This document shows positions 8,337 to 14,615 of a stretch of DNA of 30,975 nt, piece after piece. Position numbers and translations under genes: made by a program. The notes beneath the pieces are model-generated. The model had not been told where the DNA came from and did not search any database. It worked only from the letters and a program-made list of their open reading frames with translations. Position 1 is the first letter of the stretch; the number at the start of each line of letters is the position of its first letter. Source of the stretch: a virus; the IMG/VR virus record IMGVR_UViG_3300009152_000139, positions 1 through 30,975 of that record; one strand, written 5' to 3'.

Positions 8337-8984
8337 TCAGTTGTTAATTGCATTAACTAAATCAGCTAATGCTTGCGCTCCTTGGTTGACAATTATACTA
8401 TTAACATCGCTATCTGGCGGTAGCGACACGCGGACAGCTTGAGGGATTGCATCCTGCAATCGACGAGCAAGTTCCTGCCCTGGATTAGAGCCATCCTCTT
8501 TAGCATCGTTGTCAGTACAGATTACAACAGTGCCAATCCCATCAAAACACCTACTAAAATAAGGCTTCCAAGCATTGACGCCAGCAACGGCAACCGCTGG
8601 GAACCCAGCAAGAGTCGCACTAATCGCATCTATTTCTCCCTCTACTACTAGCACTTGGCTAACTGCATTAACTATTGCACTGACATTGTATAGGTGGTGC
8701 TTCTGACCAGTAGGTATCATGTACTTAGGATCCCCGCCATCAATGCGACGGAACTTAAACCCAACTACACCAGCCTCTGTTATATAGGGGATGGATAGGT
8801 GATGCTTAAGTCTGTCCTCATGACCAGGTGCTACCTCGGCTACGTAACCTAGCAAAAATTTTTCGGCTCCATCAAGGATGCCACGTTGTGTTAGGTACGC
8901 CTCTGCTGGTGAACCAGCAAGGCTGTTGTGGTACTGATGTGCTGCTTTAGTCCAGAGATCTATGAGTTTGGGATTAGTCTTCAT
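8337..8984 (-). CDS. DNA primase, Toprim domain subunit
   Basis: The 215-aa product contains the Toprim core: VLVVEGEIDAISA (E115) and VVICTDND (D158, D160), which bind catalytic Mg. It lacks the CHC2 zinc finger; that domain is encoded separately at 9508-9834, with a peptidase gene in between. Residues 1-90 are a primase-type linker ending in GFKFRR. Together the two proteins likely make primers for phage DNA synthesis. The start overlaps the previous stop (ATGA) and follows caggagaaagt. Confidence 0.85.
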   Translation of the reverse strand: MKTNPKLIDLWTKAAHQYHNSLAGSPAEAYLTQRGILDGAEKFLLGYVAEVAPGHEDRLKHHLSIPYITEAGVVGFKFRRIDGGDPKYMIPTGQKHHLYNVSAIVNAVSQVLVVEGEIDAISATLAGFPAVAVAGVNAWKPYFSRCFDGIGTVVICTDNDAKEDGSNPGQELARRLQDAIPQAVRVSLPPDSDVNSIIVNQGAQALADLVNAINN

Positions 8985-9511
8985 ACTTTCTCCTGCCTGT
9001 GCGTAATGAATGGAGGTGCAGTGTATACATCATTGCGAGCAGCAATCTGCATTGCTTGTTTCCATGTTGCACCACCCGCTAGTGCGCCTAGTGCAAAGCT
9101 TGACCCTGACCCTACGCCATACAGCCCATCATCACGTAAGTATACAGAATAAGAATCATCTACTTGGTAGATAGTTCCATTGATTGCAAGTATAAACTCA
9201 AACCCAGCATCTGCATCATCCTTATCTGGTACATACCCTGACTCCTTGATGCAATCTCTTATGCTTGGTGCAACAGTTGTAATCATAAAGTGATACATGT
9301 CTTTGATGTTAACTGGTATAGCTGGCGGTTTCCACACATGTTGTATCACATCACATGGTTGCACATCACCAGCACCAGCAATTAACCACTTACCCCGCTT
9401 GCTAATCTTAGTAACAATTGGATGTGAGTATGGTCTGTTCATTGCAGTGGTGCGTGAATCGGCTGCAAGAATGCAGCCGTTGTCTTGTTGGATACCAATG
9501 ATTGTTGTCAT
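8981..9511 (-). CDS. HslV/proteasome beta-like threonine peptidase (Ntn hydrolase)
   Basis: ATG at 9511 gives Met followed by TTIIGI, so simple Met removal would expose Thr1, as in HslV; the frame is open to 9538. In mature numbering, Asp17 is conserved, Lys34 matches Lys33 of the family, and GAGD at 45-48 matches the GxxGD-type strand. Ser134 lies in GSGSSFAL and Asp160 near the end matches the supporting residues. The mature length of about 175 residues equals HslV. It probably forms a ring peptidase needing an unfoldase; no HslU or Mpa/ARC-like ATPase is encoded in this window. The gene sits between the two primase genes with ATGA overlaps on both sides. Confidence 0.82.
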   Translation of the reverse strand: MTTIIGIQQDNGCILAADSRTTAMNRPYSHPIVTKISKRGKWLIAGAGDVQPCDVIQHVWKPPAIPVNIKDMYHFMITTVAPSIRDCIKESGYVPDKDDADAGFEFILAINGTIYQVDDSYSVYLRDDGLYGVGSGSSFALGALAGGATWKQAMQIAARNDVYTAPPFITHRQEKV

Positions 9512-9834
9512 CGAGATCGTAACCTTGGTGGTGTCCACCGCCCACTCTTCTTACTGCGACGATTGTGAACAATCGGAGTAGAAGATTCTTTGCCAATATT
9601 TTTTTCAGCCCATGACCGAGCTTCTGGGTATGCTAAATGTTCACGTGCCATGATGATCTGTATACCAGAACCACCAGCAGCACATGCATAGCATACCCAG
9701 ACGCCCTTGTCTGAGTTAACTGAAGCAGATTTACGAGAGTCGTCATGCACTGGACAGAGAATAGACTTCTCACCTTGCGGTAAGTCCAATCCATAATGAT
9801 TAAAGACTGCTTCAAGAAACTCAGGCTGGTTCAC
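9508..9834 (-). CDS. DNA primase, CHC2 zinc-finger subunit
   Basis: The 108-aa protein is essentially a CHC2 zinc finger: LCPVHDDSRKSASVN (C27, H30) and WVCYACAAGG (C48, C51). It continues with the IQIIMAREHL helix typical of the end of that domain. CHC2 recognises the template in bacterial-type primases. The basic C-terminus (RRSKKSGRWTPPRLRSR) may bind DNA. The Toprim half is a separate gene downstream (8337-8984). Confidence 0.85.
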   Translation of the reverse strand: MNQPEFLEAVFNHYGLDLPQGEKSILCPVHDDSRKSASVNSDKGVWVCYACAAGGSGIQIIMAREHLAYPEARSWAEKNIGKESSTPIVHNRRSKKSGRWTPPRLRSR

Positions 9835-10250: not shown

Positions 10251-10604
10251 TTACCTATGTCCATTGTAACCTGCCTGTTTTAGCAGATCAGCCCAGAGCC
10301 ATGCGGGCATTACCGCGTATGACTCTGAGACATTTGTAGTGCCACGCTTTTTTATTAGCACCACGCCAGTCTCAGCATCAGCATGAGTCATCTCATCTGA
10401 GAGCTCCTGCAGATAGCCACTGAGAGTGATCTTCTTTTCGTTCTTACATTCTATCACTACGCCATCGATGCCATCAATATCACCAACGTCGTCGTGACGA
10501 CCTGCACCATACGCACGTTCAGCGCATGGAAATCCATACGAGACTAGCCACTTGACTACATCTCGCTCATACTGTGAGCCTTTGCGTTTGCTTGGTGTTG
10601 TCAT
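10251..10604 (-). CDS. Holliday junction resolvase-like PD-(D/E)XK nuclease
   Basis: The 117-aa product starts with a basic KRKGSQYERDVVKWL helix (Glu13), followed by GFPCAERAYGAGRHDDVGDIDGIDGVVIECKN. The Asp42, Glu52, Lys54 set fits the Hjc-type PD-(D/E)XK catalytic site. Such enzymes resolve recombination or replication junctions. The start overlaps the upstream WhiB-like gene stop as ATGA. It could instead act as a general phage nuclease. Confidence 0.82.
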   Translation of the reverse strand: MTTPSKRKGSQYERDVVKWLVSYGFPCAERAYGAGRHDDVGDIDGIDGVVIECKNEKKITLSGYLQELSDEMTHADAETGVVLIKKRGTTNVSESYAVMPAWLWADLLKQAGYNGHR

Positions 10605-10858
10605 ACGTAGTCCGAGCTAAGGATAGATTCCAATTGGATACCAAGTTGTCTACGCATCTGCATTCTAACGCGAGGAACTGTGCCACCCCAGATACCAAAA
10701 GCTTCGTGACGCATACCCCACTCCAAACATTCTTTAATTACTGGACAACTACTGCAAATCTTTTTTGCTATTGGAACAATGCTTACATCATCTTCTGGAT
10801 AAAAAAATTCAATGCCAACCTCTTTACATAAAGCTTCACTAAAGTCTGGATACTTCAT
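10601..10858 (-). CDS. WhiB family Fe-S transcriptional regulator
   Basis: The 85-aa protein has the four WhiB cysteines (C11, C35, C38, C44) in the C-x23-C-x2-C-x5-C pattern and the GIWGGTVPR turn at 55-63, followed by a basic R-rich tail. WhiB proteins carry a [4Fe-4S] cluster and act with the primary sigma factor to control transcription. Phage copies probably take over or block host WhiB. It is the strongest host marker in the window, pointing to Actinobacteria. The start follows gaggtgctaatca. Confidence 0.92.
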   Translation of the reverse strand: MKYPDFSEALCKEVGIEFFYPEDDVSIVPIAKKICSSCPVIKECLEWGMRHEAFGIWGGTVPRVRMQMRRQLGIQLESILSSDYV

Positions 10859-12186: not shown

Positions 12187-12660
12187 TTACTTAGCCCAGA
12201 TAGTTTCTGCTTCTACTGCACCTGGAGTAAAAGGCTTTGGTCCCTTGGCTGGGTCAAACCAACCAACATAAGCCTTGCCAGCTTTGGAAGTACCCTTCTT
12301 CTTTGCGTACTTACCTCGACCGTCTGGCAATGCTGGTGCATCTGGATGTCCATATGTCCATTCATTACCGTAGCGATCCATGATTACTTCAATTGCTGCA
12401 GCGGATGTGCCTGCTGCAACTGGAGTTGGATTGAGACCAGCATCTTGTAGCACTTGCACTGCTGCTGCTGAAGCAGCAAATGCACCACCTGACGCACCAC
12501 CTGAGCGGTTGTTAAGTGATTGCTGTAGCGCAGTAGCGGAAGCAATTGCTTCTACTGCTGCTGTTAGATTTGCGCTGAACTCGCTAACACTATTACCGCG
12601 AACGGTGAATAGGTCAGTTGAGTTTAGCTTGCCTGTATATGAGAACATAGATTCAGTCAT
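12187..12660 (-). CDS. Hypothetical recombination-module protein (157 aa)
   Basis: Family not firmly recognised. Residues 1-40 are beta/alpha-like (SYTGKLNSTDLFTVRGN), residues 50-90 are Ala/Gly/Ser-rich, and residues 95-157 are compact (NEWTYGHPDAP, then GKAYVGWFDPAKG). The layout resembles a poorly studied actinophage protein encoded between Cas4-type nuclease and helicase genes, but the Cys residues I associate with that group are missing. A single-stranded DNA-binding role is only a guess. The start follows ccttttggag-like aaaaggagatgaactag. Confidence 0.6.
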   Translation of the reverse strand: MTESMFSYTGKLNSTDLFTVRGNSVSEFSANLTAAVEAIASATALQQSLNNRSGGASGGAFAASAAAVQVLQDAGLNPTPVAAGTSAAAIEVIMDRYGNEWTYGHPDAPALPDGRGKYAKKKGTSKAGKAYVGWFDPAKGPKPFTPGAVEAETIWAK

Positions 12661-13330
12661 CTAGTTCATCTCCTTTTCTTTTTCCCTGGATTTGTAATGG
12701 GAAATCTTTGCCACCCATTGCAGGACATTGTGCCGTAAAACTGCACATCCTGCATGAGTCACCAACTGATGGCGGAAACCAACCTTCCCAGACGGAAGCG
12801 TTCATCGCACCAAATACATAATCGAAATATTCCATTGACAGATGTGATAGGTCAATCAATTCATCAAGCTCGCCTTTGCGAGTCATGAAGAAGGCTCCCC
12901 ACTTAGGGCGGATGCCATAACTACGTTCAATACCAGAGGCATAGAGACCTGCTTGGATTGCACCGAAGGGCGTCCTAGAACCTGTCTTGTAGTCAACGAT
13001 AACCAAGTCTTCCCCTACTTGGTAGATCGCATCAACAACCATACGCACTGGTGTACCCCCGAAGAATACATCAGCAGCCCATTCAATTCCAGGACGACCA
13101 TCGGGCATTGTTGCAATTTTCCAACCAGATTGTTTGTACCAGTTATAGTACGCCTCAACCTGCTTGAGTCCATCGCTCTGCCAAAAGGGCAGATCTTCCC
13201 CATCAGGACGCAAGGTGGTCTTGCGTCCCGCTGTCTTCCACTCCGTAGAGGGAATGCCAGTCTTCTGTTCTGTTTCTAGAACAGCGTCATTAAATACTTC
13301 AGCCCACTTAGTTGTCAAATCGATAGTCAT
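12653..13330 (-). CDS. Cas4/RecB-like PD-(D/E)XK exonuclease, C-terminal part
   Basis: The 225-aa product carries most of a Cas4/RecB-type nuclease: D100 in MVVDAIY, D113-x-K115 in IVDYKTG, the QxxxY motif Q126-Y130, and a C-terminal Fe-S triplet C193-x2-C196-x5-C202. It lacks the N-terminal motif I (GxxxH) and the fourth cysteine, both found in the separate gene 13504-13698. Only about seven extra codons are open upstream before a stop. It likely acts with that fragment as a two-polypeptide nuclease; a decayed gene is the alternative. Confidence 0.8.
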   Translation of the reverse strand: MTIDLTTKWAEVFNDAVLETEQKTGIPSTEWKTAGRKTTLRPDGEDLPFWQSDGLKQVEAYYNWYKQSGWKIATMPDGRPGIEWAADVFFGGTPVRMVVDAIYQVGEDLVIVDYKTGSRTPFGAIQAGLYASGIERSYGIRPKWGAFFMTRKGELDELIDLSHLSMEYFDYVFGAMNASVWEGWFPPSVGDSCRMCSFTAQCPAMGGKDFPLQIQGKRKGDELDD

Positions 13331-13538
13331 CGGGGTTCCATTCTGGGTGGTCTACTGGTGTCGGTGCTGTCATTGGTGAGCCACAGTTGGCACAAAAAGA
13401 ATCTAAGAACCACATAACTAGTTCGTAGTCTGAGAAGATTGCTCTGATAACTTGGACGTTACTCCCGCAATTAATACACTCATTGCTGGGTACGCCACGT
13501 TGGTCAATCCCCTGTGGAGTGTTGTCGGTAGAGCTCAT
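13308..13538 (-). CDS. Small double-CxxC zinc-ribbon protein between nuclease halves
   Basis: The 76-aa product has two Cys pairs, CINCG (about residue 21) and CANCG (about residue 49), separated by an IRAIFSDYELVMWFLDS helix-strand, and an acidic Pro/Asp-rich tail. It resembles small zinc-ribbon proteins seen in actinophages. The start overlaps the N-terminal nuclease fragment by 35 bases and the end overlaps the C-terminal fragment by 23, in a third frame. The start follows gttggagtggttaaacc. Confidence 0.7.
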   Translation of the reverse strand: MSSTDNTPQGIDQRGVPSNECINCGSNVQVIRAIFSDYELVMWFLDSFCANCGSPMTAPTPVDHPEWNPDDYRFDN

Positions 13539-13698
13539 GGTTTAACCACTCCAACATTGAATGGACGGCGGAGCCAGCAGCAAGATATACTGCGGGCTTT
13601 TCTGGAACCATGGCTACCTTACTCAGATAATATTTCTGAGGGCAGGACTGCCACGTGGATAGCTGACTAAACGAGCGGTGCGGAGGAAGTTCATTCAT
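13504..13698 (-). CDS. Cas4/RecB-like nuclease, N-terminal part (64 aa)
   Basis: ATG at 13698 (MNELPPHRSFSQLS) is tentative; the frame is open to 13761 with TTG or GTG alternatives and no strong ribosome binding site. The sequence has SFSQLSTWQSCPQKYYL with Cys19, and GSAVHSMLEWL with His46 and Glu50. These are the motif I region and first Fe-S cysteine of Cas4/RecB-type nucleases, whose other residues lie in 12653-13330. It is probably the first gene of the minus-strand replication block. Confidence 0.7.
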   Translation of the reverse strand: MNELPPHRSFSQLSTWQSCPQKYYLSKVAMVPEKPAVYLAAGSAVHSMLEWLNHELYRQHSTGD

Positions 13699-13833: not shown

Positions 13834-14043
13834 ATGAAACCAGAAGAGAAAACCAAGTGGGACGAATACATCAATGCGCTATTAGCGCATCATAAGAATG
13901 AAGAGTATGTCGAACACATGAAGAAGGTGATCTATAAAATTCTGGAAACAAGAATTGCACCCAAGGATGATTGGTGTGATGGCTTTAATACTGGGTTGGA
14001 ATGGTCAATCCGTATCTATCTAAAAGATAAGAGTGCTTACTAA
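13834..14043 (+). CDS. Small hypothetical protein (69 aa)
   Basis: Family not recognised. ATG at 13834 (MKPEEKTKWDEY) follows catggagaaaa; the longer frame from 13765 would read through the inverted repeat. The protein is helical and charged. It directly precedes the methyltransferase gene (stop at 14043 overlaps ATG as TAATG), so the two are probably co-expressed. Confidence 0.7.
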   Translation: MKPEEKTKWDEYINALLAHHKNEEYVEHMKKVIYKILETRIAPKDDWCDGFNTGLEWSIRIYLKDKSAY

Positions 14044-14615
14044 TGACATATCCGAATTGGTTTGAAGGAACGGACGCAAAACAAAACTTTGAAAAACATC
14101 TATTGCATCTGGCTGATAAGCCAAACCTACGGCTACTCCAGATAGGTGCATTCACTGGCGATGCAAGTGTGTGGCTATGTGAAAATATATTAAGCGACAG
14201 GTCATCAATCCTTATTGACGTTGATACATGGGCTGGTTCGGATGAACCAGTTCATCACAACATGGATTGGGATGATGTACTTCAAGTTTATGAAGACAAG
14301 ATTGCTAAATACCAAAGAGTCGTTCGACTTAAGATGACCAGTGACCAATACTTTGCTGGCGAAATCGAGGCAGAGTTTGATTTTATTTATATTGATGGAG
14401 ACCATACAGCTTTTGCTGTACTTCGTGATGGCATGAATGCTTACGAGAAATGCAAAGTAGGTGGCATCCTCGCCTTTGATGATTACATATGGAGTGCAAG
14501 TAAAGGTGATTTCTATGATCCGAAGTATGCCATTGATGCACTGATGCATCTATTGATTGGAAGAGTTGAAAGGATAGAAGACAACTCTCAGCTCTGGTTA
14601 AGAAAGATTATATAA
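14043..14615 (+). CDS. Class I SAM-dependent methyltransferase-like protein
   Basis: This 190-aa protein matches Methyltransf_24-type enzymes: LLQIGAFTGDASVWL (SAM-binding motif I, about 31-45), ILIDVDTW (acidic end of the second strand), DFIYIDGDHT at 113-122, and GGILAFDDY at 140-148. Substrates of this class are often small molecules or glycans; its own is unknown. It has a Rossmann fold and no target-recognition domain, so DNA methylation is unlikely. It and its partner form a two-gene plus-strand island between two minus-strand blocks. Confidence 0.83.
   Translation: MTYPNWFEGTDAKQNFEKHLLHLADKPNLRLLQIGAFTGDASVWLCENILSDRSSILIDVDTWAGSDEPVHHNMDWDDVLQVYEDKIAKYQRVVRLKMTSDQYFAGEIEAEFDFIYIDGDHTAFAVLRDGMNAYEKCKVGGILAFDDYIWSASKGDFYDPKYAIDALMHLLIGRVERIEDNSQLWLRKII

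Follow-up and report, generated by a model that had tools for sequence, protein, structure and literature searches.

A putative Cas4/RecB-type exonuclease of aquatic actinobacterial viruses encoded in two complementary halves around a gene-tolerant junction

The split nuclease locus

The virus record IMGVR_UViG_3300009152_000139 (here called the window, the whole analyzed stretch of 30,975 nucleotides) most probably encodes a PD-(D/E)XK exonuclease of the Cas4/RecB type as two chains that assemble in trans, with an unrelated small gene seated at the break. From comparative genomics, we assign this reading a probability of about 0.86. The split is widespread in aquatic actinobacterial viruses, both with and without inserts, and the spread of the loci indicates that it is older or wider than the zinc-ribbon gene that occupies the junction in the window. 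The genes concerned are given in the order of the leftward operon.

13504..13698, minus strand: N-half of the putative Cas4/RecB-type exonuclease, 64 aa; C19, G42xxxH46 (motif I), E50
13308..13538, minus strand: inserted zinc-ribbon-like gene, 76 aa; CxxC x24 CxxC
13331..13503, minus strand: 173-nt junction separating the halves; equivalent to an inter-helix loop in single-chain relatives and is an insertion site in other phages
12653..13330, minus strand: C-half of the same putative exonuclease, 225 aa; E83, D100, D113-x-K115, Q126xxxY130, C193/C196/C202
12187..12660, minus strand: downstream gene, 157 aa; overlaps the C-half, no family match, operon position shared with a gene of Planktophila phage F5
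11351..12184, minus strand: DnaB-like replicative helicase/ATPase of the same leftward operon; phrog_243, E 2e-75

The N-half, the zinc ribbon, and the C-half lie in three different frames of the minus strand. The N-half runs from ATG 13698 to its stop at 13504, with an open frame that extends back to TTG 13761. The zinc-ribbon ORF differs in frame from both halves and shares 35 nt with the N-half and 23 nt with the C-half; herein, the TGA stop of the N-half is located within the zinc-ribbon ORF and the TAA stop of the zinc ribbon within the C-half ORF. A sequence-only reading of the window had described a 173-base gap holding a 76-aa double-CxxC gene that overlaps both halves in a third frame, and the ORF coordinates agree with this description. 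A comparison of variability by codon position revealed indels among relatives in the overlap of N-half and zinc ribbon.

Complementary halves of one nuclease domain

The two halves match successive parts of the same profiles. In the Pfam family PDDEXK_1 (PF12705), the N-half covers positions 3–50 (E 3.4e-7) and the C-half positions 110–247; in PHROG 1870, an "exonuclease" family of 313 positions, they cover 11–68 and 75–293, respectively. The C-half matches phrog_1870 with an E value of 3e-56, and the N-half matches phrog_69 with 2.6e-11. That each half might be complete by itself had been named as a possible objection to a split enzyme; each half instead accounts for a different stretch of the same domain. 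The profile matches thus indicate contiguous, complementary pieces of a single nuclease domain, with no duplication and almost nothing absent. No helicase domain of the kind found in AddB and AdnA was detected in the 225-aa C-half with Pfam or PHROGs, which leaves a nuclease domain only.

The motif set of PD-(D/E)XK nucleases of the Cas4/RecB type (GxxxH motif I, D, D-x-K, and QxxxY) is complete, with H46 on the N-half and the rest on the C-half. Likewise, there are four Cys ligand positions, one N-terminal (C19, on the N-half) and three C-terminal (C193/C196/C202, on the C-half). Near or full invariance in both split and single-chain relatives is found for C19, H46, and E50 of the N-half and for E83, D100, D113, K115, Q126, Y130, C193, C196, and C202 of the C-half. 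This bears out the earlier assignment of H46 and a candidate Fe-S Cys (C19) to the first gene and of D100, D113/K115, QxxxY, and the Cys triplet to the second. The distribution of all motifs over two ORFs instead of a single polypeptide is a variant feature of this Cas4/RecB-type nuclease, and because one domain is encoded as two proteins, the Fe-S site would need two chains.

Fused versions, for which a search had been suggested, exist among the single-chain actinophage exonucleases of PHROG 1870, such as gp36 of Streptomyces phage Ponzi, gp68 of Mycobacterium phage SWU2, and gp36 of Propionibacterium phage BruceLethal, and are colinear with the halves. They share with the split form the motifs, the motif order, and the operon neighborhood (small gene or genes, helicase, resolvase, and primase) at approximately 25 to 38% identity, but consist of one ORF where the window has two with a third gene between them. 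Hence, the locus corresponds to a gene in pieces: single-chain relatives are known and the pieces are complementary. All three genes are under purifying selection, with N-half and C-half strongly constrained. The median dN/dS in the window clade, calculated with the overlapping gene ends excluded, is 0.017 for the N-half, 0.059 for the zinc ribbon, and 0.089 for the C-half.

Distribution of the split form

The order N-half, zinc ribbon, C-half, which the sequence-only reading had proposed to look for in relatives, is found with identical frames in each of the first 80 IMG/VR relatives listed, wherever the contig reaches far enough. The C-halves of these 80 contigs are 77 to 100% identical, and the frame steps are always +1, +1. 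A distant phage, OX376641 (C-half 32% identical), is broken at the same position, with its N- and C-ORFs overlapping and no gene between them. OX376641 and OX376640 are LanE43AprF5 (F5) and LanE43AprE7 (E7), respectively, cultured lytic Planktophila phages isolated on "Ca. Planktophila landstejnensis" LanE-43; the main text of their description does not mention a split nuclease (PMC10202952). In the collection used here, both GenBank records are unannotated and labeled Caudovirales sp. ct2KA10. E7 and F5 share the break point and lack an insert, as do approximately 80 further contigs related to OX376641, all of which are split at the same break.

A scan seeded with single-chain forms recovered both single-chain nucleases (in Cutibacterium, Lentzea, and several aquatic phages) and more split clades, and relatives in bacterial genomes are single ORFs throughout (27 of 27). 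After removal of duplicates, 265 distinct split and 53 single-chain loci were obtained. The break point is identical in all split loci, and an N-half was found in every one of them with more than 400 nt upstream; the entries lacking an N-half in the list of the junction survey are all single-ORF bacterial genes under the threshold for the N-half. A read or indel error, by which the split might have been explained away, is excluded because there are 265 distinct split loci, including those of the two cultured Planktophila phages.

In a tree rooted on the bacterial single-chain relatives, the split forms fall into three clades, one of which is the window clade. The best rooted tree requires three changes, but a single clade of split forms withstands the AU test (p-AU 0.156) and long branches are present; therefore, one to three origins of the split, followed by gains and losses of inserts, are possible. 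One locus (L029) carries a 78-nt in-frame deletion in its N-half (975–1088) that removes the motif-I His while zinc ribbon and C-half are intact, which is either a mutation or an assembly artifact.

Proposed assembly in trans

The N-half and the C-half would be translated separately from one operon mRNA, either through stop-start overlap or by initiation at a start site belonging to each half. The chains would then associate noncovalently and rebuild the active site from H46 of the N-half and E83, D100, D113, and K115 of the C-half. In the same way, a 4Fe-4S site would be formed from C19 of the N-half and C193, C196, and C202 of the C-half. The rebuilt enzyme would act like the single-chain form in the same recombination/replication operon, that is, in the resection or degradation of DNA ends. 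The sequence-only reading had suggested an Fe-S nuclease assembled in trans, possibly with the zinc ribbon as a third subunit; comparative genomics supports the split and the assembly in trans well, but not a general role of the zinc ribbon, since at this position most of the other split lineages have unrelated genes or no zinc ribbon.

Contents of the junction

The junction survey revealed at least nine unrelated families of small inserted genes, reaching up to 0.9 kb. Apart from simple overlap with no insert, the junction holds the window-type zinc ribbon, a helical protein of approximately 78 aa, a coiled-coil-like protein, small CxxC proteins, or one-offs. The helical protein (MIxIVNEEGG...TYNxIMRERYxDGL...) is present in approximately 60 loci (L274, L279, and L383–L450) and belongs to no known family. 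The 0.9-kb insert of L122, L123, and L125 consists of two genes, which encode the coiled-coil-like protein and a 218-aa protein with a weak likeness to DUF7574 under the Pfam cut-off. Small CxxC inserts other than the window type occur in L262, where the insert matches DUF7695, and L267, and one-off families in L263, L374, L377, L378–L380, and L381. Nucleases that are at least 90% identical differ by the presence or absence of an insert in the L122 group, the L262 group, and L274/L276.

The zinc ribbon itself is conserved in its own clade, but most of the other split lineages do not have it. All loci found carry it between N-half and C-half; among the IMG/VR homologs kept, none lies outside this junction, and no homolog of either the window or the L280 version was found in 50,697 phage records. 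L280 and, judged by the zinc-ribbon profile, close relatives are divergent members that keep the three-gene order. All zinc-ribbon matches of the protein in Pfam are under the cut-off. Homing endonuclease activity of the zinc ribbon was considered and dismissed: neither it nor the sampled other inserts gave a significant HNH or GIY-YIG match in Pfam or PHROGs. In L036 and L043, its conserved ATG is changed to ACG, which is synonymous in the frame of the N-half; a TTG seven codons downstream would give MTIDQRG, near the zinc-ribbon start of L280.

Paired Cys are also present in the unrelated insert families of L262, L267, L377, and L378. Small ORFs elsewhere in the sampled loci show them in 7 of 168 cases (4%), a background that derives from crude gene calls and is compared with few insert families. 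This is a hint that Cys-rich inserts may be functional partners. An extended form of assembly in trans, in which the Fe-S ligands are divided one plus three and the junction is a recurrent docking site for interchangeable, often Cys-rich partners or regulators, is conceivable, though we consider it doubtful. That the zinc ribbon is indispensable as a third subunit, bridging or regulating the halves, is unlikely. Its constant position between the halves, its dN/dS of 0.059, and the paired Cys of several other insert families argue for such a role; against it stand the many split lineages without an insert or with non-Cys inserts, in addition to the crude background rate and the small number of insert families. 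The zinc ribbon is not a general subunit because many split phages do without it. The most plausible view is that it belongs to a set of small genes that have come to rest in a permissive junction, with a possible role as nuclease partner in the window clade.

Structure models

The single-chain aquatic relative L246, which is 38% identical to the joined halves of the window, is predicted by AlphaFold to form one compact domain (pLDDT 95.1, pTM 0.90); the underlying alignment comprised single chains together with separate halves in 52 rows. The compact fold bears indirectly on the objection, raised in the sequence-only reading, that the halves might make no contact. In this model, the motif-I His is located in helix 42–62, which is followed by a four-residue loop and helix 67–86. 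By alignment, the break of the split form falls into this predicted surface loop. The loop varies in length among single chains, with approximately ten additional residues in Cutibacterium phages. The closest PDB folds to L246, and likewise to the window C-half, are the Cas4-family protein CtACE1 (9iab), mycobacterial AdnA (7sjr), and AddB (3u4q). All three are single chains, and AdnA and AddB carry helicase domains, unlike the split nuclease.

Modeled alone, the window C-half has a confident core, but its Cys tail reaches a pLDDT of only 45 to 61 compared with 92 to 95 in L246. This is weakly consistent with a Cys tail that needs the N-half, since the two models differ in sequence and in alignment depth (24 versus 52 rows). 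In another explanation, the C-half is active alone and the N-half has turned into a separate regulator or Fe-S accessory. Because the C-half holds all metal-binding acidic residues, activity of the C-half alone is conceivable: E83, D100, D113, K115, Q126, and Y130 are all found there, on a core that models well by itself. The N-half, however, retains precisely the first Cys along with the catalytic His, shows the strongest constraint among the three genes, and accompanies the C-half in all split loci whose upstream DNA is long enough; together with the poorly predicted Fe-S tail of the isolated C-half, this makes independent activity improbable.

Frames and start sites

Assembly from two separately translated chains has to be weighed against the synthesis of one continuous polypeptide, either by two programmed +1 frameshifts (from N-half to zinc ribbon to C-half) or by translational bypass. 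In favor of this, the steps in the window clade are always +1, +1, with overlapping ORFs at either junction. Across lineages, however, the frame offset from N-half to C-half is 0, +1, or +2, and the junction spans anything from an overlap to approximately 925 nt that contain in-frame stops and other genes. The step from N-half to zinc ribbon in L280, which carries a window-type zinc ribbon, differs from that of the window clade, and the nucleases of at least 90% identity with or without an insert speak against it as well. Because frames, inserts, and stops are variable, frameshift, bypass, or readthrough cannot be the general explanation, in line with the earlier remark that a simple frameshift is insufficient; a continuous polypeptide is very improbable.

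The insert being removed at the RNA or protein level as a small intron or intein, to give a normal single-chain nuclease, is the least credible explanation. In its favor, inteins do interrupt members of this broad nuclease family in cluster C1 mycobacteriophages (PMC5050341). However, the window and three loci with inserts gave no Rfam match, no splicing elements were found, and the Pfam matches of the insert, an ordinary ORF of 76 aa, include no intein family. In addition, most inserts start in overlap with the N-half stop and finish at the C-half start, and many split loci consist of overlapping ORFs with no insert. The sequence-only reading had considered the gap rather short for a self-splicing intron.

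Most inserts thus have their own start codon, which overlaps the stop of the N-half, and end at the start of the C-half. Shine-Dalgarno-like matches of at least 4 nt precede 71% of the C-half starts behind an insert compared with 45% of internal ATGs; these rates ignore relatedness and permit two candidate starts for the C-half. At overlapping C-half starts without an insert, the rate is 29% against the same 45% background. With no excess there, the translation of these C-halves rests on presumed coupling; the rate fits stop-start coupling but is no proof of it.

Relation to known systems

Phage enzyme genes in separate coding regions are known from NrdA of phage Aeh1, the gp43 DNA polymerase of Aeromonas phage 25, and the T4 topoisomerase gp39/gp60; an active enzyme arises from the pieces of NrdA, and those of gp43 copurify with activity (PMC2988022). 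The split nuclease resembles these systems in its gene organization. Their breaks, however, occur in single phages and are associated with untranslated inserts or homing endonucleases, whereas the break described here is common to many lineages. Moreover, most inserts are not recognizable homing endonucleases, and a set of Fe-S ligands would be divided. The RecB/Cas4-like exonucleases of cluster C1 mycobacteriophages contain inteins (PMC5050341). They belong to the same broad family and are likewise interrupted by foreign sequence, but the inteins splice back to one chain, whereas here no intein is present and each half has a start and a stop of its own. The split nuclease is hence a variant of genes in pieces, within a family of nucleases that inteins are already known to target. 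In a literature search, no split phage exonuclease of the Cas4/RecB type was found to be described, which is not proof of its absence.

If the halves assemble, an oxygen-sensitive 4Fe-4S cluster and a nuclease active site span two chains in very common aquatic phages, and a natural split nuclease exists whose break point tolerates cargo. Such an enzyme would allow a simple test of the Fe-S cluster as a staple that joins the N- and C-terminal ends of Cas4/AddB-type nucleases. It would also be a case for asking why phages repeatedly insert genes within an essential-looking gene. For gene calling, the locus is a warning that half of an enzyme can be a 60-aa ORF, which is easily overlooked.

Genomic neighborhood

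Downstream of the C-half, the operon encodes the DnaB-like helicase, WhiB, a RusA-like Holliday junction resolvase, and a primase; single-chain relatives adjoin a DnaB-like helicase, a Holliday junction resolvase, and a primase. The neighbors examined belong to replication and recombination; CRISPR Cas4, by comparison, is encoded with cas1/cas2. The split enzyme most likely acts as its single-chain counterpart does in the recombination or replication of DNA. Further genes of the window include the WhiB-like regulator at 10601–10858 and, at 8981–9538 on the minus strand, a match to HslV-family peptidases (PHROG 1040), which is unusual within a replication operon. Upstream of the nuclease operon, a divergent gene at 14043–14615 on the plus strand appears by eye to be class I methyltransferase-like (LLQIGAFTGDASVWL).
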